From positions 1 to 35,621 of the IMG/VR virus record IMGVR_UViG_3300006923_002237: DNA of 35,621 bases; one strand, 5' to 3'. The translations under genes were made by a program, and so were the position numbers. The notes under the pieces were generated by a model. The model saw nothing but the letters and a program-made list of their open reading frames with translations, did not search any database and was not told the origin of the DNA. The DNA is from a virus. Below, piece after piece: positions 3,001 to 26,203 of the stretch (position 1 is the first letter of the stretch; each line of letters begins with the position of its first letter).

Positions 3001-4364
3001 ATACAGGAGAGAGTTTGAATGGTAATAGTGCTGTATCATTTTGGGTTTATAATGATGGATCTATGTCAGGTGGAACAAAAATTTTAAAATCAGTACAAGG
3101 ATATGAAGTGCCTGTAAGTGTTAGCGGTTCTGGTATATTTGCAGCTATGGGAACTTCAGGTACTCAAAATATCAATTCCTTTTTATCTTCAAACCATTTA
3201 AACTCTTGGGTGCACATACTTGCAGCTTCTGATGATACAAATAATCAAACTAAGATATATGTTAATTCGGTTTTGTTTGACACAATAAACAGCACTATGG
3301 CTGGTGGTTTTAGCGGTATTATGTGGAATAGCACTAATAGCTTTAGAGCTGCTGGTTATACACATGTTGGTATTTGGCAAGGTGCTGTGTTTTTACAAGA
3401 AACAGTTCAAAGATTGTATAACAGAGGCTTTGACGCTCAGTATGATTTAATAAACGCATGGCCAGCTGATATAGTTTCTGCTCCAGATGTGAATATCTCT
3501 GAATATTTTTATTATCATGAAATACTCTCTAATTTTGATGACTATATAAGTCAAGTGCAAGTTGATTCAGCAGAAAATTACACCATTACAATTTCAAACA
3601 TTGGTGACATAACCTTTGGAACAATTGGTGATTACTCAATAACATACAAAGTAGAGACAGATAGTGGTTTAGCTTCTTACAAAACTCAAGCTTTAAAGAT
3701 TTTGGCTGACGCATCTGATGCTGCAACATATAATAATTTAGGTATAATAGAACAAACTCCTGATGGAGGAGACGTGTCAAGAAACTATGTTTTAGCCACA
3801 GAGTACAATAGAAATGACGTATTGCCAAGCGGCTCTAACTCTATAACGATATCAAACATAAGTGATTCTAGTGATTATGAAGATGGATTTACTGCAACTA
3901 TATGGATAAGACCTCAGCGCCATACTCAATATGGAAGGATTTTCTTTCAGTTTGGTAATTTTTACTTCAAACATGATGGACAAGGTGCTTTTAGACTTGG
4001 GAATCCTGGAGGTAGTAGTTTTTCAAGAGACAGTAATGCAGTACATATAGGTACAGATAACAACAGATGGACTCACATTACTGTTACTTGGCATAAAGAT
4101 GATGGAGTGAAGCTTTATAGTGGGTCCATTTCTGATACTAATTTGAGTGCAGGTAATTATCAAAATGTATCTTTTGGCTTGGTTGACGAAAGAGTAGTTA
4201 ATACAAATGCAGGTGTTTTCTCTACAGACTTATCTGTAGGTTTTAATGATGCGGAACAAAGAGCTATGTTTGGAGCTCAAATAGCAAAAAGAATTATGAC
4301 ATCTAGTGAAATATATTCTTATATTAGGAAATCTTTAGAGGATCAAGATACTTTATTAGGTTAG
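3..4364 (+). CDS. Large tail-fibre/adhesin-like protein, 5'-truncated by window edge
   Basis: The reading frame is open from the first bases, so the true start is upstream; the TTG at 96 is only an internal codon. About 1450 residues are visible. The first ~200 residues hold degenerate repeats of the type GSNGQILYVGTGDVLSW, as in phage tail fibres. Then come an Ig-like domain of the DUF5011/HYR kind (about 1230-1485, with SYTVTYSATDASG), a thrombospondin-type-3-like calcium motif (about 1712-1812, DADSDG and DIDGDGVGD), a second one (about 2700-2765, DDDGDGLANLLE), a second Ig-like segment (about 3480-3710) and LamG/concanavalin-like regions (about 2900-3420 and 3870-4340, with FTATIWIRP and WTHITVTW). 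Such modules bind glycans or surfaces, so host adsorption is the likely role. The domain reading is good; the virion location is inferred. Confidence 0.8.
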   Translation, partial: NYHSNFDISIDKPGYEINIDFANLVQFNSVDLSGLTIGGVVGSTGDILTRSSGGGLEWNSISTVLGSSGISYSAGNNIDINGSNVIRTKRTVDFEYLDTEYLNVNQLLLAGASGSNGQILYVGTGDVLSWSTVTIGSLIFNAGKNMTIDTTSGTTVGTLETVDFTAVNLSELSLDGVYGTTDQYITVNTAGNMVWKDFPVFSSSLEELTDVDIVTANGTIDAKNQQVIKYDYTNNLWKPEYIQDSYYIDSTNHSNSSMILSPTKNYTSYLIDSFSLVTNYNGSFVEILLDKSTDWISGTEISIKNVSRGESTDLKIAWNSSDPSDFVEYSSGANSQGILLYPDSSVIMIIRKGFSSYEAYIKASHGSIDFYQNTSTISLGSGSANNSAATGSLLSSDYVNLPEESPSNVDLTAPVISLINSHPYYIELGYETSMDKPDPGVTVVDDVDNPIGYISNWSSEVNYNQVGSYTVTYSATDASGKSSSETRTVIVQDTTPPELTLNAVDAVINATYPNGNFLDKVASTFDYSHPVTIVIDTSDIQVYPGQYDITYIATDAHGNTTSVDTTVTVFDYDADSDGILNSRDHFPYDAAQKSDIDGDGVGDASIVILHQDFQNTVNYLEIDDTELINTGPGIQGDYDFEYLNINGKDKFALVVNSSDFRLNYESKGHMEDARPHMGSSSLHFSLNLPQDFDIPSDSSGTIFYFHQIQNDSAWEGHYQLKLKKVLNTNTNETSFRISLYSKAPGGTNNFIDHNSSVSPILNRDLTDYEILNYDPTVSDEYLGGQVSYAADPQDTLKNHLANFDIPNDGEFHAISLAHGSFFGNANCHQVLVYMNGSLKCIFEKTGNFGYQNRVNYVYIYGLTGMKCSDLIWAKTTDEGVIIDTQEKMLNTTLSGGVLINSDDDGDGLANLLEISSGQSDPSLLNTDAVTYPNDQLDDLLNNYVTHFFNGLNKGTNIAGAGYADYTSTYDGGNQNYTEDANKDPFRYFYHGGLRRAGNRYTGESLNGNSAVSFWVYNDGSMSGGTKILKSVQGYEVPVSVSGSGIFAAMGTSGTQNINSFLSSNHLNSWVHILAASDDTNNQTKIYVNSVLFDTINSTMAGGFSGIMWNSTNSFRAAGYTHVGIWQGAVFLQETVQRLYNRGFDAQYDLINAWPADIVSAPDVNISEYFYYHEILSNFDDYISQVQVDSAENYTITISNIGDITFGTIGDYSITYKVETDSGLASYKTQALKILADASDAATYNNLGIIEQTPDGGDVSRNYVLATEYNRNDVLPSGSNSITISNISDSSDYEDGFTATIWIRPQRHTQYGRIFFQFGNFYFKHDGQGAFRLGNPGGSSFSRDSNAVHIGTDNNRWTHITVTWHKDDGVKLYSGSISDTNLSAGNYQNVSFGLVDERVVNTNAGVFSTDLSVGFNDAEQRAMFGAQIAKRIMTSSEIYSYIRKSLEDQDTLLG

Positions 4365-4978: not shown

Positions 4979-5996
4979 AAAAGACACGTTTGAACTTTTA
5001 CTTAGTTCATACGGAGTTAAGTTCAGAAAAGTAGAAAAACAAACTATAGGTTTTTACGATATATATGATGTAACTTTATCTGTCGGCATGAGAATTTCTA
5101 AAATAGATTCAGTTTTAGCAGAAATAGGTTTGCACTTGCAGGCGTTAGAGAGGCCTAGAGGATACCCCTTGACACGTAAAGGGGTCTATAGGATAGAGGT
5201 ACAGAGGGAGGATATAAAGCCAAAACCTTTGACCGAGTTACTAAAAAACGACACTCATAACGAAGTCATACCTACTTGTTTGGGTACAAAAAATAGTGGA
5301 GAGGATTTTATTATTGATTTAAACTCTGTTCCACATTTGTTAATAGGTGGAACTACAGGTTCGGGTAAGTCTGTTTTGTTGCATAATATAATTTTATCTC
5401 AAATGAAAAACAATGCAGACATATATTTGGTTGATCCTAAGTTTGTAGAATTCTCTATGTATAAATATACAAATTCTGTTCTGAGAATAGATAATTCTAT
5501 AGAGCAATTTAAGATTACATTAAGTGTTATTTTTGATGAGATGAATAGAAGGTATGAGTTTATGAATAAGTTTAGAGTTAGAAATATAAAAGAATATAAT
5601 GACTCTGTTTTTACATATTCTAAGTTTAAACCAATAGTTATAGTTATAGATGAGTGGGCGGATTTTCATCTTCAAGATAAAACCTTGCAAAATGACTTGT
5701 GTCTGATTGCTCAAAAAGGCAGGGCATCTGGAATAAGCATAGTTTTAGCAACTCAAAGACCAAGTGTTAATGTTATTTCTGGTTTAATTAAGGCTAACTT
5801 TCCAGGAAGAGTTTGTTTGCGAGTTGCATCTTCAGTTGACTCTAAAGTTATTTTGGACAAAACAGGAGGAGAAGAACTTAGCAGTTCTGGATCAGGATTG
5901 TATCTTGACGGATCATTTAAAATGCCAGTTAAATTTAGAACACCCTATGTTAAAAACATAGCTAATATCCTAGGAGGATTAGATGGAACTTACTGA
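4944..5996 (+). CDS. FtsK/SpoIIIE-family DNA translocase, short phage form
   Basis: An ATP-driven double-stranded DNA pump of the FtsK-HerA class, 350 residues. Residues 25-100 resemble the FtsK beta domain (TLSVGMRISKIDSVLAEIGL). Walker A is GTTGSGKS at 136-143; Walker B is IVIVIDEWAD with D236/E237. The downstream family motif LATQRPSVNVISGLIKANFP and the DSKVILDKTGGEELSSSGSG segment are clear. It lacks membrane segments and the C-terminal gamma (DNA sequence-reading) domain of cellular FtsK, ending soon after the motor. GGAG at 4933 supports the ATG. It overlaps the primase zinc-finger gene by 14 bases. It may act in DNA packaging, segregation or moving DNA during replication; the sequence does not decide which. 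Confidence 0.88.
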   Translation: MGVRYQDFLENEKDTFELLLSSYGVKFRKVEKQTIGFYDIYDVTLSVGMRISKIDSVLAEIGLHLQALERPRGYPLTRKGVYRIEVQREDIKPKPLTELLKNDTHNEVIPTCLGTKNSGEDFIIDLNSVPHLLIGGTTGSGKSVLLHNIILSQMKNNADIYLVDPKFVEFSMYKYTNSVLRIDNSIEQFKITLSVIFDEMNRRYEFMNKFRVRNIKEYNDSVFTYSKFKPIVIVIDEWADFHLQDKTLQNDLCLIAQKGRASGISIVLATQRPSVNVISGLIKANFPGRVCLRVASSVDSKVILDKTGGEELSSSGSGLYLDGSFKMPVKFRTPYVKNIANILGGLDGTY

Positions 5997-6504
5997 TTTG
6001 ATAAATTCTCAAATACAAATTAAAGATATAGCAGAAGAGTTTGATATAGAACTTAATAGGTGTATGGCTGGAAACTTTAGTCACAAAATAAAATGCCCTA
6101 ATCCTGATCACAAAGGAGGAGCAGAAAGAACTCCGTCTTGTTATATAGACGATAAAGGTAACAGTTTTCATTGCTTTGGTTGCGGAGCAGGTAATAAAGC
6201 AATACACTTTTTTATGCTTTGTACCAACTTGAATTTTAAAGAGGCGATAATAGAGCTTAAAGGCAGAATTGATATTGATGGCAGTTATACTCCAACAAAA
6301 AGGAGATCAAATAATTTTGGAATTTTATTACAAATTTCAGACATTATTAGAAAATATATATATAATAACCCAAAGGACTTAGATAAAGTCTCTAGGTTGT
6401 GTGAGAAGGTAGATTCTGAGATAGAAAAAATCGGATACGAAGATATAAGAGGAGCTGGAGTGCTTTTAAACAAAGTTACAAAAGCTCTAAAGAAAAACAA
6501 ATAA
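5983..6504 (+). CDS. DnaG-type primase zinc-binding (CHC2) protein, stand-alone
   Basis: The N-terminal zinc domain of bacterial primases, encoded alone. The CHC2 signature is present: C38-P, H43, TPSCYID, then FHCFGCGAGN with C64 and C67, giving ligands C38/H43/C64/C67. In DnaG this domain recognises the template and regulates primer length. The remaining 100 residues are helical and lysine-rich with no TOPRIM catalytic core. The catalytic half is found about 19 kb downstream at 25463-26203. The start overlaps the FtsK-like gene by 14 bases, with AGGAGG (about 5970) as ribosome site. Zinc-finger identity is firm; partnership with the distant TOPRIM protein is inferred. Confidence 0.85.
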   Translation: MELTDLINSQIQIKDIAEEFDIELNRCMAGNFSHKIKCPNPDHKGGAERTPSCYIDDKGNSFHCFGCGAGNKAIHFFMLCTNLNFKEAIIELKGRIDIDGSYTPTKRRSNNFGILLQISDIIRKYIYNNPKDLDKVSRLCEKVDSEIEKIGYEDIRGAGVLLNKVTKALKKNK

Positions 6505-11442: not shown

Positions 11443-12051
11443 ATGTCTATCATAGCGGTTGAAATGTATGAGGAGCTTATACGTGCTGATTTCGAAACAG
11501 GGCTTGGGGTAGATAAGATTCTAAATAAAATAGAGCCTTTAGTTAATTCTTATTCATATAAGTTTAAGATTGACAACCTAACTCCTGAAGATATAAAGCA
11601 AGAGGTTTATGTCATAATACTAGAGGGTTTAAAGAATTATGATCATAGCAAAAACGTAAAGCTCTCTACATTTTTACACACACATATATTTAACAAGATG
11701 GTTTCTAAGTTTAATACTTCAGTTAAAAAATCTAATAATGCGAATTTTTTAAATGGTAATGGAGATTTTTTCAAGGTCATGCACATAAATGATTTAGGTG
11801 AAAATCCTGATGACTTTTTATCTCTTGATGTAGCATTTAGAAATAGCGAAGAGAATGAGGATTTCTCTTTTTTGGTTGAGGATTTAAAGCAAACTTTAAT
11901 AGATGAAGAATGGAATGTATTTAAATTAATATTTTTAGAAGGTACGACAATCAGAGAAACTGCACAAAGGCTAAATATTGAAGTTTGGACAGTTTCATCT
12001 ATAATAAAAAGAATAAAGAAAAATGAACGAATCAAGCAGTATTACAGATAA
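11443..12051 (+). CDS. Phage RNA polymerase sigma factor (sigma-70 regions 2 and 4)
   Basis: A 202-residue sigma-like protein. Region 2 is about residues 28-80: LVNSYSYKFKI, then LTPEDIKQEVYVIILEGL, which matches the core-binding/-10-reading helices, and VKLSTFLHTHIFNKM. Region 4 is about 150-198, with an HTH in TIRETAQRLNIEVWTVSSII. Region 1 is absent and the linker is short, as in ECF or phage sigma factors such as T4 gp55 or SPO1 gp28. It would redirect host RNA polymerase to phage promoters, probably middle or late. It begins directly after the preceding stop (TAAATG) and overlaps the next gene by 29 bases. Confidence 0.82.
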   Translation: MSIIAVEMYEELIRADFETGLGVDKILNKIEPLVNSYSYKFKIDNLTPEDIKQEVYVIILEGLKNYDHSKNVKLSTFLHTHIFNKMVSKFNTSVKKSNNANFLNGNGDFFKVMHINDLGENPDDFLSLDVAFRNSEENEDFSFLVEDLKQTLIDEEWNVFKLIFLEGTTIRETAQRLNIEVWTVSSIIKRIKKNERIKQYYR

Positions 12052-12955
12052 AATAAAAAAGTATATAGCTACAGAGAAGGCGTTATCAGGATCAAACATA
12101 AAGAAGTTAGAAATAATTAACAAGCGATATTCTGTCAGACTTATTAAAAAAGAATTATTATTTATACACTTTGATTTTTCAAAAGTAAAGTTTGATGATC
12201 TAGATGATTGCAGATTCGGAATTAAATTATTCAAACTTTCAAAAAGTGAGTTTTTAAAAAAATACACCAATGAGACAGTCGACCTTCAAAAGATTTTTTT
12301 AAAAATTAAAAAATATGCTGATAATCTGGATATAATAGAGGGGGAGCTTGATGGGTACTATTTTCCTTCATTGTCAGGAAAAGAAATAACCAAAGATGAT
12401 GGATCAATAAAAAAGATATTTTTAAAAAGAATAATGTTTTTACGGTTTCTTCTCTATTCTTCTGCCCTCTCTTGTTTAGAGGGACATGACACAGTAGGCT
12501 TGATAGTAGATAATGTTTTTAAGTATGTTGTTTTCACAGAAGAACCTTTGAAATTCTTTGATAAATTGGAAAATCAATTGCTAGAAATACAATTGAGAAA
12601 ATATAAAAACGTATCTTTGAAAGCAAAAGATATAATCAAGAAAACAAAAGATACTTACATTTTAATATTTGACATTGATAGAGTTGGAAATGAAAAAGTC
12701 AACTCCTTATATGTTGATTTGAGAAACAAAAGAGGTGAAAAAGTATGGGTTAAAAAGAAAAGCATGTTTAACTATCCAGTAGAAAATAAATACTATAAAT
12801 CGTTAAAAATAAAAGGAGGAGATATAGATGATATTAGCGAATTAGACAAAGAAGAATCCTTAATAATATGTAATTTCTCAAGAAGAGAAATGGAATTTAA
12901 TCAAGAGAACATAGTTTGGTTAAAATTCACACTAGACAAAATAATAAATGGTTAA
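12023..12955 (+). CDS. Hypothetical protein (310 aa), overlaps sigma factor gene
   Basis: Not recognised. The protein is lysine-rich with alternating charged and hydrophobic segments. Residues 100-170 include a hydrophobic helix (FLKRIMFLRFLLYSSAL), too charged around it to be a confident membrane span. The C-terminal half looks beta-rich (YILIFDIDRVG, SLYVDLRNKRGEKVWVKKK, ESLIICNFSRREMEF). The 29-base overlap with the sigma gene suggests coupled translation and perhaps a role in transcription, for example as a sigma partner, but nothing in the sequence proves this. Confidence 0.6.
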   Translation: MNESSSITDKIKKYIATEKALSGSNIKKLEIINKRYSVRLIKKELLFIHFDFSKVKFDDLDDCRFGIKLFKLSKSEFLKKYTNETVDLQKIFLKIKKYADNLDIIEGELDGYYFPSLSGKEITKDDGSIKKIFLKRIMFLRFLLYSSALSCLEGHDTVGLIVDNVFKYVVFTEEPLKFFDKLENQLLEIQLRKYKNVSLKAKDIIKKTKDTYILIFDIDRVGNEKVNSLYVDLRNKRGEKVWVKKKSMFNYPVENKYYKSLKIKGGDIDDISELDKEESLIICNFSRREMEFNQENIVWLKFTLDKIING

Positions 12956-12985
12956 TAAATACCAATACAAAAAAGTGGAGAAAAA

Positions 12986-13279
12986 ATGAGTAATGACGAA
13001 TTTTCAGTAAAAATTAATACAAGATCAGAAGAAGAAATGAATGCATGGACACAAGAGTACGTGCGTACATATATGAGTTACGAACAAGAAATTGATCAAA
13101 GACGAGATGAGATTAAAGAATATAGATCTTCTTTTAAAGAATGGGAGAAGGATTTCCTTGAAGACAAGCCTATTCCAAAAAAAGAATTAACACAAGCTGT
13201 TCAAATCTTAAAAAAGAATTTAGATCATAAAATGATATCACAGATGGTAGGATCTATGGAGAAAGTTGTAGAAGGTTAA
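12986..13279 (+). CDS. Small charged helical protein (97 aa)
   Basis: A highly charged, helical protein. The centre (YEQEIDQRRDEIKEYRSSF) is a likely coiled coil, followed by KKELTQAVQILKKNL. The size and helix-turn-helix layout recall small phage or bacterial DNA-binding coiled-coil proteins such as T4 DsbA or GapR, but there is no decisive motif and this is only a hint. GTGGAG is the ribosome site. It is the last gene before a good terminator, so it closes the 4431-13279 transcription unit. Confidence 0.55.
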   Translation: MSNDEFSVKINTRSEEEMNAWTQEYVRTYMSYEQEIDQRRDEIKEYRSSFKEWEKDFLEDKPIPKKELTQAVQILKKNLDHKMISQMVGSMEKVVEG

Positions 13280-13916: not shown

Positions 13917-14492
13917 ATGTCAAAGCTATTAACAAATACTAGTCAAAAAGCAGAAAAAGTATTTTTTCAAGTAAAATCTTTAAAGATTGAATATGGCTTA
14001 ATAAAAAAACAAAATGATGAAAACCTTACATCTTTTAGAAAAGCTGTGACAGAGTATGCCAAAGCAAACGGATTACCTTTAGACAATTTGTTTGCTACAG
14101 ATTTCGAGGAACCTGAAGTTTCAGAGTCTGCATTAAAGGTTGAGTTTTCATCTAATTTAAAAAAGCTTTATAAAAAAATAGCTTTCAAGACACACCCTGA
14201 TAAATTAAAAGGGTATCCCGAAGAATACAAAAAAATGATGAGCAAATATCATGAAATGTTATCTGAAGGAATACACTCTAACTGTCCTTCTATTATAATA
14301 GATATAGCTCAAAAGTTAGATTTAGAAGATATAAACTTGGGAGTTGAAGAGTACCTCACACTAGAGGGAGAGAAAGAAGAATTAGAAGAAAAAATAAATG
14401 GCATAAAAAACACCTATGCTTGGATTTGGCAAAAGGCGAATAAAAGCGAAATGATAATAAAAATGTTTTTAGGGGTTCAAGATGAAAAGTAA
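13917..14492 (+). CDS. J-domain (DnaJ-like) co-chaperone protein
   Basis: The core is a J-domain-like segment at about residues 78-117: helix II LKKLYKKIAFKTHPDK with the diagnostic H93-P94-D95, then YKKMMSKYHEML as helix III. The flanks are phage-specific: a helical N-terminus of 75 residues and a C-terminal coiled coil (GEKEELEEKINGIKNTYAWI). There is no Gly/Phe region, zinc centre or substrate domain as in DnaJ. The HPD motif activates Hsp70, so this protein probably recruits host DnaK to a particular phage task. AAAAGGAAAG precedes the start. It overlaps the GIY-YIG gene by 11 bases. Confidence 0.75.
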   Translation: MSKLLTNTSQKAEKVFFQVKSLKIEYGLIKKQNDENLTSFRKAVTEYAKANGLPLDNLFATDFEEPEVSESALKVEFSSNLKKLYKKIAFKTHPDKLKGYPEEYKKMMSKYHEMLSEGIHSNCPSIIIDIAQKLDLEDINLGVEEYLTLEGEKEELEEKINGIKNTYAWIWQKANKSEMIIKMFLGVQDEK

Positions 14493-15012
14493 AAGTTGTG
14501 GACGTTGCAATAGCATAAAAGACATATCTGACTTTAACAAAGACAGATCAAAAAAGGACGGTCTTTATTCCTTTTGTAGAGAATGTCAGAAAATAGTTAA
14601 GAAGAATAGTTATAACAAAATAGGAAGAGAAACTTGCAAAAGAAGATATAAGAGAAGCGTAAAGAGTCAAAAGAATGCAATATATGAGATATCAAATACT
14701 AAGAACAAAAAGACATATATAGGAAAGACTAATGCCTATAAACTTAGAACAAAGAGTCATATTAAGAAATTAAACAAAAACTCTCATTCAAACAAGGACT
14801 TGCAAGAAGACTGGAATATACTTGGAGAAGAAAATTTTAATTTTCGTATTTTAAAAGAATGTGATACTGACAAAGACCTAGAGATATACGAAGCATTAGA
14901 AGCAATAAGAAGGTTGGATAACAATAAAGAGTTATATAATCATAAATTTACATTTACCACTGAAGATTTAGTAAGACTTATAAACATAATAAAAGGAGAA
15001 GAGAAATGTTAA
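14482..15012 (+). CDS. GIY-YIG endonuclease with N-terminal zinc finger
   Basis: The N-terminus is a four-cysteine finger (C6, C9, C32, C35: CGRC and CREC) of the kind found in phage HNH and homing nucleases. The GIY-YIG domain follows: AIYEISN (66-72), YIGKT (79-83), R89 as the catalytic arginine, the H-N-LQ-DW pattern (102-111) and GEENFNF (115-121) with the metal-binding glutamate candidate. This looks like a free-standing homing or repair endonuclease. It overlaps the J-domain gene upstream by 11 bases and the aldolase gene downstream by 7, which means it is translated with them and is not a loose insertion. Confidence 0.82.
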   Translation: MKSKSCGRCNSIKDISDFNKDRSKKDGLYSFCRECQKIVKKNSYNKIGRETCKRRYKRSVKSQKNAIYEISNTKNKKTYIGKTNAYKLRTKSHIKKLNKNSHSNKDLQEDWNILGEENFNFRILKECDTDKDLEIYEALEAIRRLDNNKELYNHKFTFTTEDLVRLINIIKGEEKC

Positions 15013-15726: not shown

Positions 15727-18700
15727 ATGGCTAAATCGCCTTTCGTGTCACTGCATAATCATACTGAGTTAGGATCACCCTTAGATGGTATGAATGATGT
15801 ATATAAATTATTTGAACAAGCAAAAACTCTTTCTCATAGAGCTATTGCCATCACAGATCATGGAACACTTACTGCTCACTTTGATGCTTGGAAAGCGTCA
15901 AAACAAACAGGAGTTAAACTTATACCTGGAATTGAAGCTTATTTTGCTCCAGACCTTTCTGTGAGAAAATCTTATCACTTGGTTCTTTTACCAAAAAATC
16001 ATAATGGTTATAAGAATATCTTAAGATTAAATTATGAATCTTACAAAAATCAAGTTTCTGGGTATATGGGGAAAAAGACTCCTAGGATAAGCTGGGAACA
16101 TTTAGAAAAGTTTGGCGAAGATATAATTTGCCTTACGGCCTGTTCTAACGGACCTATTGCAAAAGCTCTTATTGCAGACGGAGATGAAGATGAGGCTTTG
16201 TCTAGACTTGACAGGCTAATTGAAATATTTGGAGATAGGCTGTATTTAGAGTTGCAACCACATAACTTAAAGACAGAAGATGGAAAGGTTGACCAAGTAA
16301 GGCTAAACAATGCTCTGATTAAATATGCAAATGATAAAGGCATAAAATATGTTGCCACATCTGATGCTCATTACTTAGATGCAGATCATGCGAAATATCA
16401 TGATATGATGTTAGCAATAAAAGACAAGAAAGCTGTAGATGATCCTAACAGATTTAGATACGGTGTTCAAGACATGTACTTAAAATCTCATGAAGAAATA
16501 ACTGAGTTTTTTGGAGAAGAAGTAGCTAGTATTGCAATGAAGAATTCTGTAGATATATCAGAAATGTGTGAAGAGCCTTCTTATCTTGAGCCAAAAGGCC
16601 CTAGACTTCCTAGGTTTCCGCTTGAAAAAGAGGCAGACTATGGCGAATTTAAGTCTTGGCACAATAGAGTTGGGTCAGAGGTAGACGAAAACAAAGGATA
16701 TCTTCGGTTCAAATGTATGAAGTCTTTTAAATTAAAGTTTTCATATTTGTCTAAAGAAAAGAAAAGAGAATATTGGAATAGAGTAAAGTATGAGTTATCA
16801 ATATTAGAAGAAAGGAATTTCTCTTCTTATATGTTAATTGTGGCTGACTATATAAACTGGGCAAAGGAAAGCGACATTCCAGTTGGGCCAGGAAGGGGCT
16901 CTGCAGGTGGGTCTTTAGTTTCTTATTTGACAGGGATAACATCTGTAAACCCAATGGATTACGGATTGTTATTTGAAAGATTTCACAATAAAGAAAAGAA
17001 GTCCTTTCCAGATATAGATACAGATTTTGCTGACCCTTCAAAAGTAAAAGAGTATTTAAAAAACAAATATGGAGAAGATAGAGTTGCATCTATTTCAAAC
17101 TGGTCAACATTGTCGCCCAAAGTAATTATAAAAGATGTCGCCAGATCGTTAAGAATAGGTGGAGATAAATCTTCTGCATTTAAGATTGCAAATCATATAA
17201 CTTCAATAATGCCTGATGCAAAAAACATCGAAGACGCAATGAAAAAATCAAAAGAGTTTAAATCTTACATGGAAAGATATCCTAGGTTGTATCAATTTGC
17301 ATCGAAACTTCAAGGTCTAACTAGAAACTGGTCAGTTCATGCTGCAGGAGTTGTAATTTCTGATGAGCCATTATATAACTTTGTTCCTCTTAGAATTGAT
17401 GATTCGGGGCAAACAGTTACTCAGTGGGAAAAGAATAGGTGTGAAGAGAATGGGTTAATAAAAATGGATATCTTGGGATTAAAAACTTTAACAGTCATTG
17501 ACAATGTTTTTAAAAATATAAAGATGACAAAAGGGAAGGTTATAAGTATAGATGATATCCCTATAGATGATGAGGATACTTATAAGATGATCTCATCTGG
17601 TAATAATGCAGGTGTTTTTCAATTAGAGTCAACACTTTCTCCATTGTGTCAAAAGATAAAGCCGTTTAATGTAAGTATGATATCTGACATTAATGCTATG
17701 GGAAGACCCAGTTGTTCTCAAAAAGACAGAAAGGATTATATAAAAAGAAGATTTGGCAAAGAAGAGTCTAAGTTTAGACATGAATCTTTAGAGAATGCTC
17801 TTGGTGATACTTTTGGAGTGTCACTTTATGAAGAGGGAATGATGGCTATAGCAAAGGATTGTGCAGGCTGGGATTTGAATCAAGCTGATGCTTTAAGAAA
17901 GATAACAAAGCTAAAAGGAAAAGATCCAGAACTTGTAATGAAAACAGAGGCTAATTTTCTTGAAGATTGTGTTAGAAAAACAGATATGTCTTTAAGAAAA
18001 GCAAAAGATATCTGGGATAATGAAATAATCCCATTTGGAATGTATGGCTTTAATAAGTCTCATTCTATTTTGTATTCTCATATTTCGGTTTATACAGCTT
18101 GGCTAAAAAGACATTACCCTACAGAGTTTATGTGTGCTTTATTAAACTCTGAGGATCCCAACTCTGATAAGTCTCAAGAGTATATAAATGAATGTTTAAA
18201 GATGAAGATAGAAGTTTTACCTCCAGATATAAATTATAGCAAAGAAAAATATTCAATAAAAGAAGAAGGCGTTATAGTTTCGGGGTTCTCTTGCTTAAAA
18301 GGGTTAGGTTCTAAAGCTTTGCAAGAAATAACATTAAATCAGCCATTTGTTTGTGTTCAGGAATTTCTTTTTAAATGCAATGGTAGAACAGTGGGCAAGA
18401 CTGCGGTACAAGCTTTATCTAAAGCAGGAGCTTTGGATTCTTTTGGAAGAACCAGAAAAGATTTATTTGAAAACTATGCAAAGTATAGAACTAAAATAAA
18501 AGCTGCAGCAAAAAAGAAAAAAGAAATATGTGAGATTGAATTACCTGAATATAATGATGAATGGGATCTTAAAGAGATTTTGATAAATGAAAGTCAAGTT
18601 TTAGGTAGGACTATTTCAGGGCAACTGCATGATGCTTTCAAGGACTTTTTCTCAGATAGTTCAATAGTAACTAGATTAAATCAAGTTGAGCATATGGAAA

Positions 18701-18975
18701 AGAGCAAAGCAGTTAGAGTTGAAGCAGTTATAAAAACCCTTATAAAGGAGTTTACAATTAAAAACGGAAAAAATATCGGAAGAAAGTTTGGAAAGTATTT
18801 AGTTGAAGACAAATGGGGTAATACATGTGGCTTGACAGTTTGGACAAATGATTATGAAAAATATAAAAATCTTTTAATTGATGGTATACCATTCAAGGCT
18901 GTATGCTCTGTAAACGAATATATGGATACAAAAGATTTATCTTTAAAGACAATAGAAAGAATTTATGGGAGGTAA
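15727..18975 (+). CDS. dnaE: DNA polymerase III alpha subunit (DnaE-type) with PHP domain
   Basis: A C-family replicative polymerase, 1082 residues. The PHP domain keeps its metal residues: H10, H12, D44, H45, E70, H84, D213 and H215 (TSDAHYL), so proofreading or pyrophosphatase activity is possible. The palm follows: GPGRGSAGGSLVSYLTG (from about 387), the acidic pair in SFPDIDTDF (D429, D431) and KMDILGLKTLT (D581). Later come the thumb/fingers, an HhH region (LSKAGALDSFG) and an OB-fold (about 985-1060). No clear clamp-binding QxDMF-like motif is visible where E. coli DnaE has one. There is no separate epsilon-like exonuclease in the window. It should be the phage replicase. Confidence 0.95.
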   Translation: MAKSPFVSLHNHTELGSPLDGMNDVYKLFEQAKTLSHRAIAITDHGTLTAHFDAWKASKQTGVKLIPGIEAYFAPDLSVRKSYHLVLLPKNHNGYKNILRLNYESYKNQVSGYMGKKTPRISWEHLEKFGEDIICLTACSNGPIAKALIADGDEDEALSRLDRLIEIFGDRLYLELQPHNLKTEDGKVDQVRLNNALIKYANDKGIKYVATSDAHYLDADHAKYHDMMLAIKDKKAVDDPNRFRYGVQDMYLKSHEEITEFFGEEVASIAMKNSVDISEMCEEPSYLEPKGPRLPRFPLEKEADYGEFKSWHNRVGSEVDENKGYLRFKCMKSFKLKFSYLSKEKKREYWNRVKYELSILEERNFSSYMLIVADYINWAKESDIPVGPGRGSAGGSLVSYLTGITSVNPMDYGLLFERFHNKEKKSFPDIDTDFADPSKVKEYLKNKYGEDRVASISNWSTLSPKVIIKDVARSLRIGGDKSSAFKIANHITSIMPDAKNIEDAMKKSKEFKSYMERYPRLYQFASKLQGLTRNWSVHAAGVVISDEPLYNFVPLRIDDSGQTVTQWEKNRCEENGLIKMDILGLKTLTVIDNVFKNIKMTKGKVISIDDIPIDDEDTYKMISSGNNAGVFQLESTLSPLCQKIKPFNVSMISDINAMGRPSCSQKDRKDYIKRRFGKEESKFRHESLENALGDTFGVSLYEEGMMAIAKDCAGWDLNQADALRKITKLKGKDPELVMKTEANFLEDCVRKTDMSLRKAKDIWDNEIIPFGMYGFNKSHSILYSHISVYTAWLKRHYPTEFMCALLNSEDPNSDKSQEYINECLKMKIEVLPPDINYSKEKYSIKEEGVIVSGFSCLKGLGSKALQEITLNQPFVCVQEFLFKCNGRTVGKTAVQALSKAGALDSFGRTRKDLFENYAKYRTKIKAAAKKKKEICEIELPEYNDEWDLKEILINESQVLGRTISGQLHDAFKDFFSDSSIVTRLNQVEHMEKSKAVRVEAVIKTLIKEFTIKNGKNIGRKFGKYLVEDKWGNTCGLTVWTNDYEKYKNLLIDGIPFKAVCSVNEYMDTKDLSLKTIERIYGR

Positions 18976-21029: not shown

Positions 21030-21656
21030 ATGAGTAAAATAGTATTTGGCGAAATAGATTGGAATGCAGCAGACGTAGGTTCACAAGGAGAGAAAAAGAA
21101 TCTTTACATGCGTTTACAGCAAGGTGAAAACGTAGTACGTGTAATGGGTAATCCAATCCAATATTATGTTCACTGGGTTCAAGCACCAGATGGGTCTAAA
21201 AAGAAAGTTAATTCACCAGTAGAAAGCCCAACTTTGGTTGCACGACTTGAAGACGCAGGTTTTAGACGACAATCAAAATGGCTTATTAAAGTTCTAGATC
21301 GAGAAGATAATGATTTCAAAGTAATGGAAGTTGGAAGTCAAATCTTTAATGGCATCAAAGCTCTTTATAATAATGACAAATGGGGAAAGGTTACAAATTA
21401 TGACATTAGTGTTGTTCGAGGGCCAAAAGGATCTCAGCCCTTATATAACGTCACACCTAACCCAAAAGAGAAACTAGATAGTTCTTTTAAAGATAAGTAT
21501 GCTCAATTTAATACAGATGTCAATATTGAAAAGCTTATTGCGCCTGCAAGTGCAGAGAAGGTGTGTGAAATTATGGGGTGGGAAGCATCTGACTACTCAT
21601 CTCAAACTACGGCAGATAGTGCTGGAGAAGAAGATTTTGATTTCGATTTTAGCTAG
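21030..21656 (+). CDS. Phage single-stranded DNA-binding protein
   Basis: A 208-residue protein with features of phage SSBs: an N-terminal segment YMRLQQGENVVRVMG, QYYVHWVQAPDG, and KWLIKVLDREDNDFKVMEVG, followed by a WGKVTNYDISVVRG strand, consistent with an OB-like fold. The C-terminus is an acidic tail ending EEDFDFDFS, like the partner-binding tip of SSB (DDDIPF in E. coli). It sits after the possible UvsY-like gene and alone before a strong terminator, with its own leader; high expression is expected of an SSB. AGGAG precedes the ATG. Functional identity is likely; the exact family name is not certain. Confidence 0.75.
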   Translation: MSKIVFGEIDWNAADVGSQGEKKNLYMRLQQGENVVRVMGNPIQYYVHWVQAPDGSKKKVNSPVESPTLVARLEDAGFRRQSKWLIKVLDREDNDFKVMEVGSQIFNGIKALYNNDKWGKVTNYDISVVRGPKGSQPLYNVTPNPKEKLDSSFKDKYAQFNTDVNIEKLIAPASAEKVCEIMGWEASDYSSQTTADSAGEEDFDFDFS

Positions 21657-21789: not shown

Positions 21790-22332
21790 ATGAAAACAGT
21801 TTTAAGTTTAGATATATCATCATCCACGATAGGGTGGGCAATAGTTAAGTACAACAGAAAAGAGTACCAGCTTTTAGAATATGGACATATAAAGCCACCA
21901 AGAAAGAAACAAGAAAAGATAATAAAGTTATCAAAAACTTATGATATGATAAAAGATTTAATTGTTGAAAAAGATCCTGATGAAGTTGCAGTAGAACAAT
22001 ACGCATCTAAATTTAGCAGAGGAAAAAGTACTGCGAATACAATCATTGTTTTATCTACTTACAATGAAACTGTAAAGCTATGTTGTTACAGGGAGCTTGA
22101 TATAATCACTTATGCTTATGCACCTGTCTCGGTGAGATCCAAGATGAGTAAGTATTTTTCTGAAAAAATATCAAATAAAGATGAGGCTTTTGATTTCGTT
22201 GTAAAAAAAGTTAAAGGTTTTAAAACAACATTAAATCGTGTGAATAATATAAAGAAAGAATGTTATGACGAAGCCGATGCTATATGTGTTGGTATATGTC
22301 ATTTTATCGCAAAATTAGAATCGGAGGAATAA
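21790..22332 (+). CDS. RuvC-like Holliday junction resolvase
   Basis: An RNase H-fold resolvase of 180 residues. The four acidic residues fit RuvC: D8 (LSLDISSSTIGWAIV), E69 (VAVEQYASKF) and D160/D163 (YDEADAICVG), equivalent to D7, E66, D138 and D141 of E. coli RuvC. It would cut branched recombination intermediates before packaging, the job of gp49 in T4, which has an unrelated fold. Its stop codon shares a base with the GroEL start (TAATG at 22330), so the two are coupled. AGAAAGG at about 21774 is a modest ribosome site. Confidence 0.85.
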   Translation: MKTVLSLDISSSTIGWAIVKYNRKEYQLLEYGHIKPPRKKQEKIIKLSKTYDMIKDLIVEKDPDEVAVEQYASKFSRGKSTANTIIVLSTYNETVKLCCYRELDIITYAYAPVSVRSKMSKYFSEKISNKDEAFDFVVKKVKGFKTTLNRVNNIKKECYDEADAICVGICHFIAKLESEE

Positions 22333-23966
22333 TGAGTAAAATTGTTTTATTTGACAAAGATGCACAAGATAAGATTATATCTGGGGTTAGTAAGTTATCC
22401 AGAATAGTAGGAGTAACTATGGGACCCAGAGGTAAGAATGTTATTATCGGAAAGCCAGTAGGTGCTCCAGTTATAACAAAAGACGGGGTGTCTGTAGCTA
22501 GACAAGTTATATTAGATGACCCTATAGAAGAGCTTGCTTCGCAGCTTGTAAAAGAAGTTGCAGGAAGAACCGCAGTTGTAGCTGGAGACGGAACAACAAC
22601 GGCTACTGTTTTGACAGATGAAATAATGTCTTTGTCAAGAGAAGTTTTAAAAGATACAAATCCAATTGACTTTAGAGATGGACTAAATTGGGCAAAGAAT
22701 CAAATAATTGAAATATTAGACAAAAATACAAAATATAAGTTGTCTGATGAAGATATAATTAACATAGCAACAATATCTACAAACTCAGACAAAGAACTTG
22801 GTCAAGCTATAGGTGAAGCATTTATATGGGCAGGCAAATTAGGAACAGTTGGAGCAGAGGCTTATCCTAATGTTAAAACTCAAGTAAGAAAAGTAGATGG
22901 CGTTTCTTTGAAGAAAGGCTTTTGTTCTCCTAATTTTCTTTCTAAAGGAGATACAGAATTACTTTTAGAAAATGCTTACATTTTACTCGTTGATAGAAAG
23001 TTAACTCATGTTAATGATTGTTCTCATTTTTTAAATGAAGTTGCAAAAACAAATAGACCGCTTTTAGTTTTGTCAAAGGGAGTGGAGAAGGTGGCTTTGG
23101 ATACCTGTATTGAAAATAACAAAAAAGGCTTTTTAAATGTTTGTTGTGTTGATTTACCAAAAAAATTACAAAACGGAAATTCCATGGAAGATCTGTCGAT
23201 TTTGACAGGGGCAACTGTTTTTTCTGATATTTTAGGCACTCCTCTTTCTTCTGCTGTTTTAAAAGATTTAGGGTCTGCAGAAAGAATTGTAATAGACAGA
23301 TTGACAACTCAAATTTTTAATTCAGAAATACAAGAAGAAAGAAGAACGGAAAAGCTAAGGCTTTATAGAGAAGACTCTTTGCAGCCAATTAGTGATCAGG
23401 CAAGAAAAGAGATAAGGGATTATATGTCCTTCTTGTCATGCAAAGCTGCTATGATAACAGTTGGTTATGATACTGAGTTAGAATTAAGAGAAAAAGGAGA
23501 TAGAGTTGAAGATGCTATGCATGCAACTGATGCTGCAATAGAGGAGGGTATTCTTCCAGGTGGTGGCGTGTCTCTGTTGAGAGCAGCAAAAGAATTATCA
23601 GAATCTAATATTCCAGAGAAGTACCTTCCTGCAGCACAAGTACTCATAAGAGCGTGTGTGCGTCCGTTTAAGCAAATCATGAGCAATGCAGATCTAGATT
23701 ATAATTCTTATTTGCATCAAATTTATGAATGCAAAGAGTTTTATTATGGTTATAATATAATCAGTGGCGAAATAGAAAATTTGGTTGAGACGGGTGTAGT
23801 GGATCCGTCTAAAGTAACAAGGACCGCAGTTTCTAATGCAGTTAGCGTCTCACTTCTTTTGATAAATACAAATGCAGTTTTAGCAGAAAGAAAAGATGAC
23901 CCTTCCGCTTGGCAACCACAGCCAGGCTGGAGACCGCCAGATGGAACATTAAATCATAAATATTAG
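22332..23966 (+). CDS. groEL: GroEL-like chaperonin (Hsp60)
   Basis: A full-length chaperonin subunit of 544 residues. The ATP site is intact: TMGPRGKNV (29-37), KDGVSVA with D51, GDGTTTATVL (85-94, D86) and EEGILPGGGVSLLRA. D51 and D86 correspond to D52 and D87 of E. coli GroEL. The flexible GGM-repeat tail of cellular GroEL is replaced by a Trp/Pro-rich end (DDPSAWQPQPGWRPPDGT). A longer frame begins at 22284 inside the resolvase gene, but GGAGG at 22323 fixes the start at 22332. No GroES-like gene is in the window. Phage chaperonins are known in some jumbo phages (for example EL and OBP of Pseudomonas). Confidence 0.95.
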   Translation: MSKIVLFDKDAQDKIISGVSKLSRIVGVTMGPRGKNVIIGKPVGAPVITKDGVSVARQVILDDPIEELASQLVKEVAGRTAVVAGDGTTTATVLTDEIMSLSREVLKDTNPIDFRDGLNWAKNQIIEILDKNTKYKLSDEDIINIATISTNSDKELGQAIGEAFIWAGKLGTVGAEAYPNVKTQVRKVDGVSLKKGFCSPNFLSKGDTELLLENAYILLVDRKLTHVNDCSHFLNEVAKTNRPLLVLSKGVEKVALDTCIENNKKGFLNVCCVDLPKKLQNGNSMEDLSILTGATVFSDILGTPLSSAVLKDLGSAERIVIDRLTTQIFNSEIQEERRTEKLRLYREDSLQPISDQARKEIRDYMSFLSCKAAMITVGYDTELELREKGDRVEDAMHATDAAIEEGILPGGGVSLLRAAKELSESNIPEKYLPAAQVLIRACVRPFKQIMSNADLDYNSYLHQIYECKEFYYGYNIISGEIENLVETGVVDPSKVTRTAVSNAVSVSLLLINTNAVLAERKDDPSAWQPQPGWRPPDGTLNHKY

Positions 23967-23976
23967 GAGGTTATTA

Positions 23977-25134
23977 ATGTCAGATAAAGTATTAAGCGAA
24001 ACTCAAGCACTAAGTCAACTAGAAGCACTATTTGGTTTGAAAAGCATTTCTCATCCAGATGTAAACTCTAAGGTTGACGTTATTCCTACAGGCTCTATTG
24101 CTTTAGATTATGCAATTGGAGCAGGTGGAGTGCCGAGAGGTAGAATTACTCAGTTTGCAGGAAAAGAAAGCTCAGGAAAGACTTTTCTTGCTTTACAAAC
24201 AGCTGCAAACTGGCAAAAACAAGATCCTGAAAATTGTTTTGCTTTTATTGATTGTGAATATACATATGATACAGAATGGGCAGAGAAGTTTGGAATTGAC
24301 AATGATAGAGTGTTTTATATTAAAACAAATGAAGCAGAAAAAGTGTTTCAAGGCTTGGTAGGAAGAGTTAAGGTGAACTCTGCAACTAAGAAAGAAACAA
24401 AGATTCAGGGTGTATTTGATATGATAGCAAAGGGTCAAAGAATTAAAGTTCCCAGTCCTAGAGGGAAGGCGAATGTTTTAGATTTATCCAAATTGGGTTT
24501 AATAATAGTTGACTCTGTTGCAGCTATGCAACCTCCAATGGAAAGAACCTCAGCAGTAGGAAAACAAAACATGGCTTTGATGGCAAGGTTTCTTTCTGTA
24601 GAATTAAGAAAAATGACTCCTGGAGTTGCAGCGGCAAATGTGGCAATGATTTTCATTAACCAGTTAAGAGTTGATCCAGGAAAGATGTTTGGAAACCCAG
24701 AGGACTCTCCTGGCGGTAGAGCACTAAAACACGCCTGCTCTCTTATGGTGAACTTAGCACCTATGTCAGGTGTTGACAATACAGTGATTGACTCTGAAGG
24801 TGAAAAGGTTGGACATAAAGTTAGAGCTAAAATAGGAAAAAACAAAGTTGGAAGCCCTTATCGAAAAGCAGAATATACTATAGAGTATTTAAGTGGAATT
24901 ACAAAAAAAGGAGAAGAAATTCTCGAAGTAGGACAGAAATTAAACATAATAGAAAGACCCAGTGTAAGATCCTACATTATAAATGGTCAAAAGTTTTCTT
25001 CTAAAAAAGATGCCTTAGAGTATATTTCTACAGAAGAAACAAGTATAGTGGCATCTATTAGGTCCGCTATGATTGATGGGAATTCAGACTTCATACAAGA
25101 AATAGAAGAAAACCCATTATTGGAGAGTAAATAG
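23977..25134 (+). CDS. recA: RecA recombinase
   Basis: A true RecA rather than the UvsX type, 385 residues. Walker A is GKESSGKT (62-69), catalytic E94 is in FIDCEYTYD, Walker B is LGLIIVDSVAAM, and FINQLRVDPGKMFGNPE and SPGGRALKHACSL follow the RecA core. The Walker B strand is preceded by an extra segment of about 35 residues (around 120-160, with ATKKETKIQG and IKVPSPRGKANV) not present in E. coli RecA. The C-terminal domain is present. It drives strand exchange and, with the SbcCD-like pair and SSB, recombination-dependent replication. AGGAGG lies 8 bases before the ATG. Confidence 0.95.
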   Translation: MSDKVLSETQALSQLEALFGLKSISHPDVNSKVDVIPTGSIALDYAIGAGGVPRGRITQFAGKESSGKTFLALQTAANWQKQDPENCFAFIDCEYTYDTEWAEKFGIDNDRVFYIKTNEAEKVFQGLVGRVKVNSATKKETKIQGVFDMIAKGQRIKVPSPRGKANVLDLSKLGLIIVDSVAAMQPPMERTSAVGKQNMALMARFLSVELRKMTPGVAAANVAMIFINQLRVDPGKMFGNPEDSPGGRALKHACSLMVNLAPMSGVDNTVIDSEGEKVGHKVRAKIGKNKVGSPYRKAEYTIEYLSGITKKGEEILEVGQKLNIIERPSVRSYIINGQKFSSKKDALEYISTEETSIVASIRSAMIDGNSDFIQEIEENPLLESK

Positions 25135-25470
25135 ATGTTGATTTATTGTGATAATATTTGTAGAGACTTAATGGACGTATCTCTTGATTTAGATACGGAC
25201 GAAGCGATTTGCAAAACCTGTGGAGAAGTTGTAACTAACGTAACACACTTTACAAAGCTTTCTATGAAGTTAAATAAAGATATAATAAAAACAAATAAGA
25301 AAGGAGCCTTCGTATTTAAATGCAAGGCTCACGATCAAATGACCGAAGTTCACTATGTTAAGTCTAGATTAAAAGGAAAGAGCTGTCCAGAAGATGAGGA
25401 CTGCCTGATAGATGTAACCGAAAGTATGAAAAATGCAATAAAGCACTACGGAGATAAGTTTAATGATTGA
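25135..25470 (+). CDS. Multi-cysteine zinc-ribbon protein (111 aa)
   Basis: Cysteines and histidines are spaced for zinc: C5/C9, C26/C29 (ICKTCGEVV), C63/H66 and C84/C90. The CKTCGE knuckle is typical of zinc ribbons. The ATG follows the RecA stop directly (TAGATG), and the 3' end overlaps the TOPRIM primase gene by 8 bases. This position makes a DNA or primase-accessory role attractive, but no named family was recognised. Confidence 0.62.
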   Translation: MLIYCDNICRDLMDVSLDLDTDEAICKTCGEVVTNVTHFTKLSMKLNKDIIKTNKKGAFVFKCKAHDQMTEVHYVKSRLKGKSCPEDEDCLIDVTESMKNAIKHYGDKFND

Positions 25471-26203
25471 CACTGATTTAAAAAGGCTAGTTGAGATTTG
25501 TCATGCAAACTTGATAAATTGTAATGACTGTAAAGATTACCTTGTATCAAGAGGCATTGATAAAAAAATTATAAAAGAATACAAGCTAGGGTACTTCCCT
25601 CAGAATCTTGGTGTTCTAACAAAACACGTATCTAAAGAGGCGTTGATAAAAAATAGTATAATCAAATCAGACAATACTTCTGATTTTAAAGATTATCATT
25701 ATTTAATAATTCCATTTACGGATGAGTATGGCAATGTTGTAGGAATAAGCGGAAGGTCTCTTTTAAGCAGTGGAGACTTAAGTTACTTGGGCGTTCCTAA
25801 ATATAGAAACTCAAGCTTTAGCAAAAGCAATTATCTTTTTGGACTAAACAAAGCTATAAAGCATATAGTTGAAAAAAGAGAGGTGTGGGTTGTTGAAGGT
25901 TACTTTGATCAGATAGCTTTATATAAAAACGGAATAAAGAATTGTGTCGCATTATCGGGCACAAGCTTTACCAATGGTCATCTTATGAAGCTAAAAAGAT
26001 ATTGCAACAAAATAAATTTTTTATTTGATAATGATGACGCAGGAAGAATTAACGCAGAAAGAACAGTAAAGAAAAGTTATGGTATAGATACATCTATGCT
26101 TTTTTATGAGTTCTCAAAGTACAAAGATGTTGATGAGTTCTTAAGAAATGAAAGCGTTAGAGAGCTAGAAAGAAGCTTAAAAAGAATAAACTTTGGAGCA
26201 TAA
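25463..26203 (+). CDS. DnaG-type primase catalytic protein (TOPRIM), lacks zinc domain
   Basis: The RNA polymerase domain of primase encoded alone, 246 residues. The N-terminal part matches the DnaG core lead-in (YLIIPFTDEYGNVVGISGR, then KSNYLFGLNKA). TOPRIM residues are in place: E145 and D149 in VVEGYFDQIAL, LSGTSF, and D189/D191 in FDNDDAGR. There is no zinc finger at the N-terminus and no helicase-binding C-terminal domain. The CHC2 zinc domain is instead at 5983-6504. It overlaps the zinc-ribbon gene upstream, which could be an alternative partner. It should make RNA primers for the phage replicase. Confidence 0.88.
   Translation: MIDTDLKRLVEICHANLINCNDCKDYLVSRGIDKKIIKEYKLGYFPQNLGVLTKHVSKEALIKNSIIKSDNTSDFKDYHYLIIPFTDEYGNVVGISGRSLLSSGDLSYLGVPKYRNSSFSKSNYLFGLNKAIKHIVEKREVWVVEGYFDQIALYKNGIKNCVALSGTSFTNGHLMKLKRYCNKINFLFDNDDAGRINAERTVKKSYGIDTSMLFYEFSKYKDVDEFLRNESVRELERSLKRINFGA

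Follow-up and report, generated by a model that had tools for sequence, protein, structure and literature searches.

Phage-encoded GroEL proteins are already known, and those of the phages EL, OBP and AR9 have been reported to act without a co-chaperonin, the EL protein having also been reported to fail at refolding rhodanese. A survey of jumbo phages noted HSP60 and HSP10 in different sets of phages and suggested a role in nucleus-like compartments. In Flavobacterium phages immuto and elemo and Cellulophaga phage Calle_1, a GroEL of the Cpn60 family is accompanied by a Cpn10 gene next to or near groEL. Here we describe a Cpn60-family chaperonin encoded on the plus strand of the IMG/VR virus record IMGVR_UViG_3300006923_002237 (35,621 bp, possibly incomplete), the whole of which is referred to below as the window. 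This 544-aa GroEL-type Group I chaperonin, which we named type A, belongs, as comparison of related virus records shows at the sequence level, to a set of two chaperonins carried by large phages of an uncultivated lineage. An initial annotation of the window had recognised a phage chaperonin with a replaced C-terminal tail, which was right but too small a description: it had missed that the tail is shared by the whole lineage, that the gene neighbourhood is conserved, and that there is a second chaperonin.

That the window protein is of the GroEL type is virtually certain. It matches Pfam Cpn60_TCP1 (PF00118) with 197 bits (E 6e-58, residues 22-520) and the PHROG 'chaperonin groEL' with 395 bits, and the equivalents of E. 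coli T30, K51, D52, D87, D398 and D495 are all kept, leaving the ATP site intact, as had been annotated. The three-domain fold and the ATP-site residues are shared with GroEL of E. coli and other bacteria, whereas a Trp/Pro-rich tail, non-hydrophobic residues at positions 203, 234 and 264, replacement of G375 by Lys and the lack of an adjoining GroES gene set the protein apart from that of E. coli, and the long relatives add a second chaperonin to these differences. Identity is about 30-40% to the solved Group I chaperonins and about 37% to the closest named-phage matches; at 23% to EL and 20% to AR9 there is no close kinship (OBP lay outside this comparison). The AlphaFold2 (AF2) subunit model is a confident GroEL subunit (predicted local distance difference test, pLDDT, 88.5), and its best Foldseek matches in the PDB are all GroEL/Hsp60-type chaperonins, the top TM-score among the matches listed being 0.85, reached by an Hsp60 single ring and by a ring of GroEL-ADP-gp31. 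Over 16,540 bases the window is 99.994% identical to another IMG/VR contig (L001), and is therefore a real virus sequence.

An alignment-based scan of IMG/VR returned five relatives at 44-50% identity whose alignment extends to the final residue (L019, L020, L021, L022 and L045), and a second scan added three with the same tail (L202, L203 and L204). When whole virus records were searched with PF00118, type A and a second chaperonin without a tail, type B, were found together in 10 contigs (G002, G003, G010, G022, G034, G035, G036, G038, G039 and G047). Type B lies on the same strand as type A and ends 30,430-59,352 bases ahead of it, is 36-37% identical to it, has a tail of a mere 2-8 residues, and was modelled by AF2 with similar confidence as a GroEL subunit (pLDDT 88.9). 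In a tabulation of upstream length over 30 type-A contigs, some shorter ones being left out, type B was carried by all eight contigs that extend 61 kb or more upstream of type A, and by two of the ten that extend 31-61 kb. The absence of type B from the other eight is expected if it falls beyond the contig end; for G037, G045 and G048, contigs that share the same type-A protein indeed place type B farther out than their edge. The virus from which the window derives very probably has a type B as well.

The second gene appears to be peculiar to this lineage among the records searched. Control records without type A carried one chaperonin gene each in 21 of 21 cases, two matches in one of them (W11) being pieces of one frame, and a further 25 of 25 such virus records gave the same result (46 in all). 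Three queries against the named phage records matched 238, 284 and 287 records, and the number of match places equalled the number of records each time, so at that sensitivity no named phage record has two chaperonins. Phage GroELs, EL and AR9 included, are thus known as one per phage across all named records matched, and our search of the literature on phages with two chaperonins found no such report, a claim limited to the literature searched. A parallel is bacterial: according to a published report, actinobacteria with duplicated GroELs also combine two chaperonins with differing C-termini in one genome, but one of their copies retains a Gly-Met tail (PMC11978752). In the type-A lineage neither copy does, and no viral GroES was found.

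In the window protein the tail comprises the last 23 residues (DDPSAWQPQPGWRPPDGTLNHKY), in which the GGM repeats that end the E. coli protein are replaced and no GGM remains, in agreement with the initial annotation. Across the lineage the tail follows variants of S-x-W-Q-P-P-A-G-W-R-P-P-x4-L-N-H-K-Y, with a Tyr variant in G022 (YQPPADYRLP). The spacing in the window (WQPQPGWRPP) lies outside the regular expression used to recognise the tail, and the window protein was entered into the type-A set by hand. Searched with a degenerate DNA pattern of the central part of the tail, IMG/VR yielded 61 matching stretches, 46 of them within a GroEL by blastp and two more in C-terminal scraps with the same tail (L300 and L311), giving 48 of 61; the remaining 13 were unrelated or stop-broken frames. 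A shared targeting or cargo peptide was considered and rejected for nine type-A contigs (three in part), in whose ORFs (open reading frames) of at least 50 aa, read in six frames, the full motif occurred in GroEL only; a looser form gave one chance match, in a 93-codon frame of L196.

Identity in the rest of the protein falls to 48%, yet the tail hardly varies. Among 34 full-length type-A proteins the mean top-residue fraction was 0.789 in the tail and 0.673 in the body (0.768 and 0.649 in the 19 non-redundant ones), as against 0.548 and 0.750 in 79 bacterial GroELs and 0.306 and 0.636 in 120 other viral GroELs, and 11 of 24 tail columns but 130 of 523 body columns of type A reached a top-residue fraction of 0.94. 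The tail does not stand out as the best-conserved stretch of the protein, since 118 of 500 body windows of equal length matched its conservation. But the relation between tail and body conservation is reversed compared with bacteria and other viruses. The tail has thus retained its length (23-24 residues in type A, 23 in E. coli) with an altered composition, and is under strong selection in the lineage; we are highly confident that the selection is specific to a function. Loss of GGM by itself is common among phage GroELs: a GGM-like motif was present in just one of 15 named phage proteins and in 43 of 120 viral GroELs, as against 71 of 79 bacterial ones and none of 34 type-A proteins. GroEL tails have been reported to contact substrate and, like proline-rich chloroplast tails, to favour polyproline-II conformations (PMC12571646); by analogy, the latter preference would be compatible with a Trp/Pro-rich tail. 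Another group of viral GroELs (L059, L064, L066, L072 and L080) has a different proline-containing tail of GPxP-x-G type, and the L072 and L080 records of this group carry Cpn10.

The apical groove was scored at eight positions, the classic ones of the mutational literature. The mean number of strongly hydrophobic residues was 7.95 in bacteria, 7.62 in other viral GroELs, 7.0 in type B, 6.53 in named phages and 5.97 in type A, and the window protein had five (FNFSLLIE, with Y203, L234 and V264 changed to Asn, Ser and Glu). Y203, which together with V264 is reported to contact substrate in GroEL (PMC10723157), is absent from 34 of 34 type-A and 10 of 10 type-B proteins. The position of hinge residue G375, a Gly in 79 of 79 bacteria, is Lys or Arg in 33 of 34 type-A proteins (Lys in the window); R197 is lost in type A and kept in nine of 10 type-B proteins, and E386 is invariant in both. 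The two types also differ at the ring-ring positions 105, 109, 434, 452, 463 and 464: in the non-redundant type-A set A109 is replaced in 18 of 19 and E434 is hydrophobic in 19 of 19, while in type B S463 is His, Tyr or Phe in 10 of 10 and R452 is hydrophobic in six of 10.

The ring-ring changes raise the question of whether the two types act jointly, either as mixed rings or as a type-A ring stacked on a type-B ring, so that tails would be present on one ring or on some subunits only. The clients of such a lidless viral hetero-chaperonin would be replication proteins of the phage, captured by the type-A tail in place of the apical groove. The consistent co-occurrence of the two genes in sufficiently long contigs, the restriction of the tail to type A and the type-specific nature of the ring-ring changes are in its favour, and chloroplast Cpn60 alpha/beta is a known hetero-chaperonin. 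Moreover, the distance matrices of A and B correlate at 0.93 over 10 genomes, a value reached in none of 20,000 permutations, in a comparison made with no control gene. However, vertical inheritance within one genome would by itself give a high correlation, the genes lie 30-59 kb apart and share no operon, their products are as diverged as stated above, and the ring-ring positions vary in other phage chaperonins too. We consider joint action distinctly unlikely.

No GroES-like gene had been noticed near the chaperonin on annotation, and profile searches agree. Cpn10 (PF00166) gave no match in the window at E up to 0.001, a weak result taken alone, given that the window is a fragment of 35.6 kb, and none in 51 type-A records (the window and sets of six, four and 40, the last searched at E up to 1), most of them fragments but three longer than 200 kb (G034, 316,664 bp; G035, 211,453 bp; G036, 232,533 bp). 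The T4 gp31 family was not found in 11 type-A records, and a custom GroES profile built from 88 sequences and E. coli GroES reached, with filters off, a best E of 0.41 over the ORFs of the window, G010, G002 and G003 and of seven further records in part. That the Pfam search is able to detect Cpn10 in phages is shown by matches over the cut-off in 10 of 15 named GroEL-carrying phages and by matches in 12 of 20 IMG/VR records without type A. In giving no Cpn10 match the type-A records resemble those of the large phages EL and AR9 (OBP was not in that search), whose chaperonins lack the Trp/Pro tail, and differ from those of immuto, elemo and Calle_1. A diverged GroES beside type B was also considered, and rejected as far as sequence profiles reach: the neighbouring 90-, 104- and 89-aa products had neither a PHROG match (E up to 0.1) nor a hit to the GroES profile. 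It is likely that the genome of the window virus has no recognisable GroES.

A virus without GroES may still use that of its host. Type A and type B could be ordinary Group I chaperonins that borrow host GroES, with two copies raising capacity and the tail being a mechanistically minor substitute for GGM. The intact ATP site and fold of both proteins and the constant presence of host GroES are consistent with this, as is a report that GroEL tails are not essential in vivo. On the other hand, the tail, being better conserved than the body, does not look neutral, the groove of type A is weaker than that of every other group compared, and GroEL C-terminal variants have been reported to be unable to replace GroEL. 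On balance, we regard borrowing of host GroES as unlikely. That type A works without GroES is, judging from its sequence, about an even call, and the published reports on the EL, OBP and AR9 chaperonins show that lid independence, which the initial annotation had mentioned for some jumbo phages, is possible for phage chaperonins.

The surroundings of type A were compared at 25 loci on 24 distinct contigs, picked from the type-A loci for their length. The order SSB, RuvC-like gene, type-A GroEL, RecA, zinc-ribbon ORF and primase is retained as far as each locus extends, a RuvC-like gene lying immediately upstream in 25 of 25 and RecA following directly after the chaperonin in 24 of 25, the remaining locus stopping at GroEL; a DnaE-like polymerase lies upstream wherever the locus extends far enough. 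Coupling to a RuvC-like gene followed by RecA, an unusual neighbourhood for a chaperonin, had been annotated in the window and is indeed present there; what the annotation lacked was its conservation across the lineage. The RuvC-like stop TAA and the GroEL ATG overlap by one base at 22332, and RecA begins 10 bases past the GroEL stop. The first start given by the ORF listing is 22284, and the ATG at 22332 with its upstream GGAGG suits the N-terminus of the family better. This placement, with SSB/RuvC on one side and RecA/primase genes on the other, suggests that the chaperonin is expressed together with genes of replication and recombination. The placement could also be read as that of a scaffold or regulator, a type-A ring recruited through its tail into a replication/recombination complex and not mainly engaged in folding, and the start-stop overlap in the window, the conserved tail resembling a linear motif and the weakened client groove are compatible with that role. 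Since the residues of the ATP cycle are all kept, as in an active chaperonin, and phage gene order often mirrors timing alone, we consider a scaffold very unlikely.

The reading that we favour, although we put it no higher than an even chance, is that type A is a GroES-independent, client-dedicated chaperonin and one of a pair. It would be an ATP-driven, GroEL-like ring that needs no GroES lid and whose apical domains bind promiscuous clients less well. The seven tails of a ring would lie on the chamber floor, where GroEL tails enter the chamber, and form an unchanging surface to which one phage client, or a few, or else a single partner protein would bind; binding of such a dedicated client or partner by the tail falls slightly short of an even chance. 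Proteins of replication and recombination would perhaps be among the clients of type A, and type B, with a groove nearer to that of GroEL, would be the more general phage chaperonin. The pair, together with the lack of a recognisable GroES, suggests that the lineage brings its own unusual folding system.

Several points weigh against this reading. The window covers only 22.3 kb upstream of type A, compared with the 30-59 kb needed to show type B. Type A retains five to seven of eight groove positions as hydrophobic, and the groove of Calle_1 is similarly reduced (YSFALLVE), yet Calle_1 has Cpn10, so an eroded groove is no proof of GroES independence. The type-A tail is modelled with low confidence past residue 530 (pLDDT 55, then 40), and tail contacts are therefore not visible in the model. 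Several small conserved ORFs adjoin type B, and a GroES too diverged for profiles is possible; host GroES, always available, could serve type A. Gene neighbourhood is weak evidence for clients, and because the EL chaperonin was reported to fail with rhodanese, phage rings that work without a lid may do no more than prevent aggregation. A lineage with two diverged GroELs, no recognisable GroES and one tail that is almost invariant constitutes a natural test of the role of the GroEL tail and of a lidless Group I-like ring.

In trees with bacterial and viral GroELs, type A formed one clade (100/100 support) with a long stem, outside all host rows, and type B likewise formed one clade (100/100) outside the host rows. 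EL, AR9 and JM-2012 chaperonins were left out as too diverged, as was MT835992 (L002), which looks bacterial. Some GroELs among phage records do look like host contamination, the MT835992 record being an example, and a recent host pickup or a chimeric or contaminating contig was accordingly considered for the window. Identity of type A to the bacterial sequences retrieved does not exceed about 40%, and this, its own well-supported clade and long stem, the same gene order in 24 distinct contigs and the second, nearly identical assembly over 16.5 kb all argue against it; we rejected this explanation, whose probability is negligible. A GroES gene elsewhere combined with placement in a host GroEL clade, named on annotation as what would overturn its reading, was found neither in the relatives nor in the tree. 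A quick tree did not make A and B sisters, but an approximately unbiased (AU) test on the same rows found the better tree to join them (p 0.815), and a careful 45-row tree separated them without the AU test rejecting their union (p 0.351). A and B may thus have arisen by duplication or by separate gain. The MT835992.1 record itself, deposited as 'Bacteriophage sp.', has groES-groEL beside glutamate-synthase-like genes.

Table 1. Positions in the window of the type-A chaperonin gene, its tail and start region, and the genes of the conserved block.
Feature	Position	Strand	Basis
DnaE-like DNA polymerase, upstream end of conserved block	15727..18975	+	synteny
SSB-like gene, within conserved block	21030..21656	+	PHROG, synteny
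RuvC-like nuclease gene	21790..22332	+	PF02075 28 bits, PHROG, synteny
Shine-Dalgarno-like GGAGG (22323-22327), RuvC-like stop TAA (22330-22332), GroEL ATG (22332-22334)	22323..22334	+	read from sequence
GroEL-type chaperonin type A, 544 aa	22332..23966	+	ORF translation, Pfam, PHROG, residue table
Trp/Pro-rich C-terminal tail, residues 522-544	23895..23963	+	begins just past the position aligned to E. coli 525; conserved among type-A proteins
RecA/UvsX-like recombinase gene	23977..25134	+	PF00154 196 bits, PHROG, synteny
Small conserved ORF of 111 aa with Cys pairs (by eye like a zinc ribbon) and no match to a family	25135..25470	+	Pfam, PHROG, synteny
DnaG-type primase core (DNAG_N + Toprim)	25463..26203	+	Pfam, PHROG, synteny

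Coordinates of the conserved block are collected in Table 1. In the G036 record, type B lies at 65 kb, type A at 126 kb, a portal gene at 141 kb, a head-protease-like gene at 147 kb and a tail-sheath gene at 180 kb, and the structural genes identify at least this virus as a contractile-tailed phage; the sequence at both ends of the 232-kb record looks like Nextera adapter. In G010 the surroundings of type B include a phosphoesterase-like gene, small unknown ORFs, an ORF of tape-measure/endolysin-like type and, about 8.5 kb past type B, an adenylosuccinate-synthetase-like gene. Conserved ORFs without assigned function flank type B in several relatives (L094:8797-9108, 11684-11953, 11943-12875 and 12880-13146), and a conserved ORF of 90 aa lies directly downstream of it. 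The adenylosuccinate-synthetase-like gene (L094:20109-21128; phrog_1211, named for a 2-aminoadenine pathway enzyme) is present in 11 of 13 lineage records and may be either PurA-like or PurZ-like; the GDEGKGK motif in G034 keeps the Asp, and the gene contains a stop in G036 and G038.

Rfam and tRNA scans of the window gave no matches, and a scan for an overlapping contig that would extend it leftwards found none. The DnaG-type primase of the window is apparently split, its zinc-binding part (5983-6504) and its core being 19 kb apart and matching different portions of the same PHROG (phrog_6444). The DnaE-like gene is present as two ORFs in L021, L022, L204, L309, L317 and L328, and RecA as two in L326, which suggests introns, inteins or split genes; a homing-endonuclease-like ORF (14482-15012) lies shortly ahead of the polymerase gene of the window itself. 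The window also encodes a 1422-aa fibre-like protein with Ig-like and laminin-G-like domains (96-4364) and a low-molecular-weight phosphotyrosine-phosphatase-like protein (PF01451; 13313-13789).

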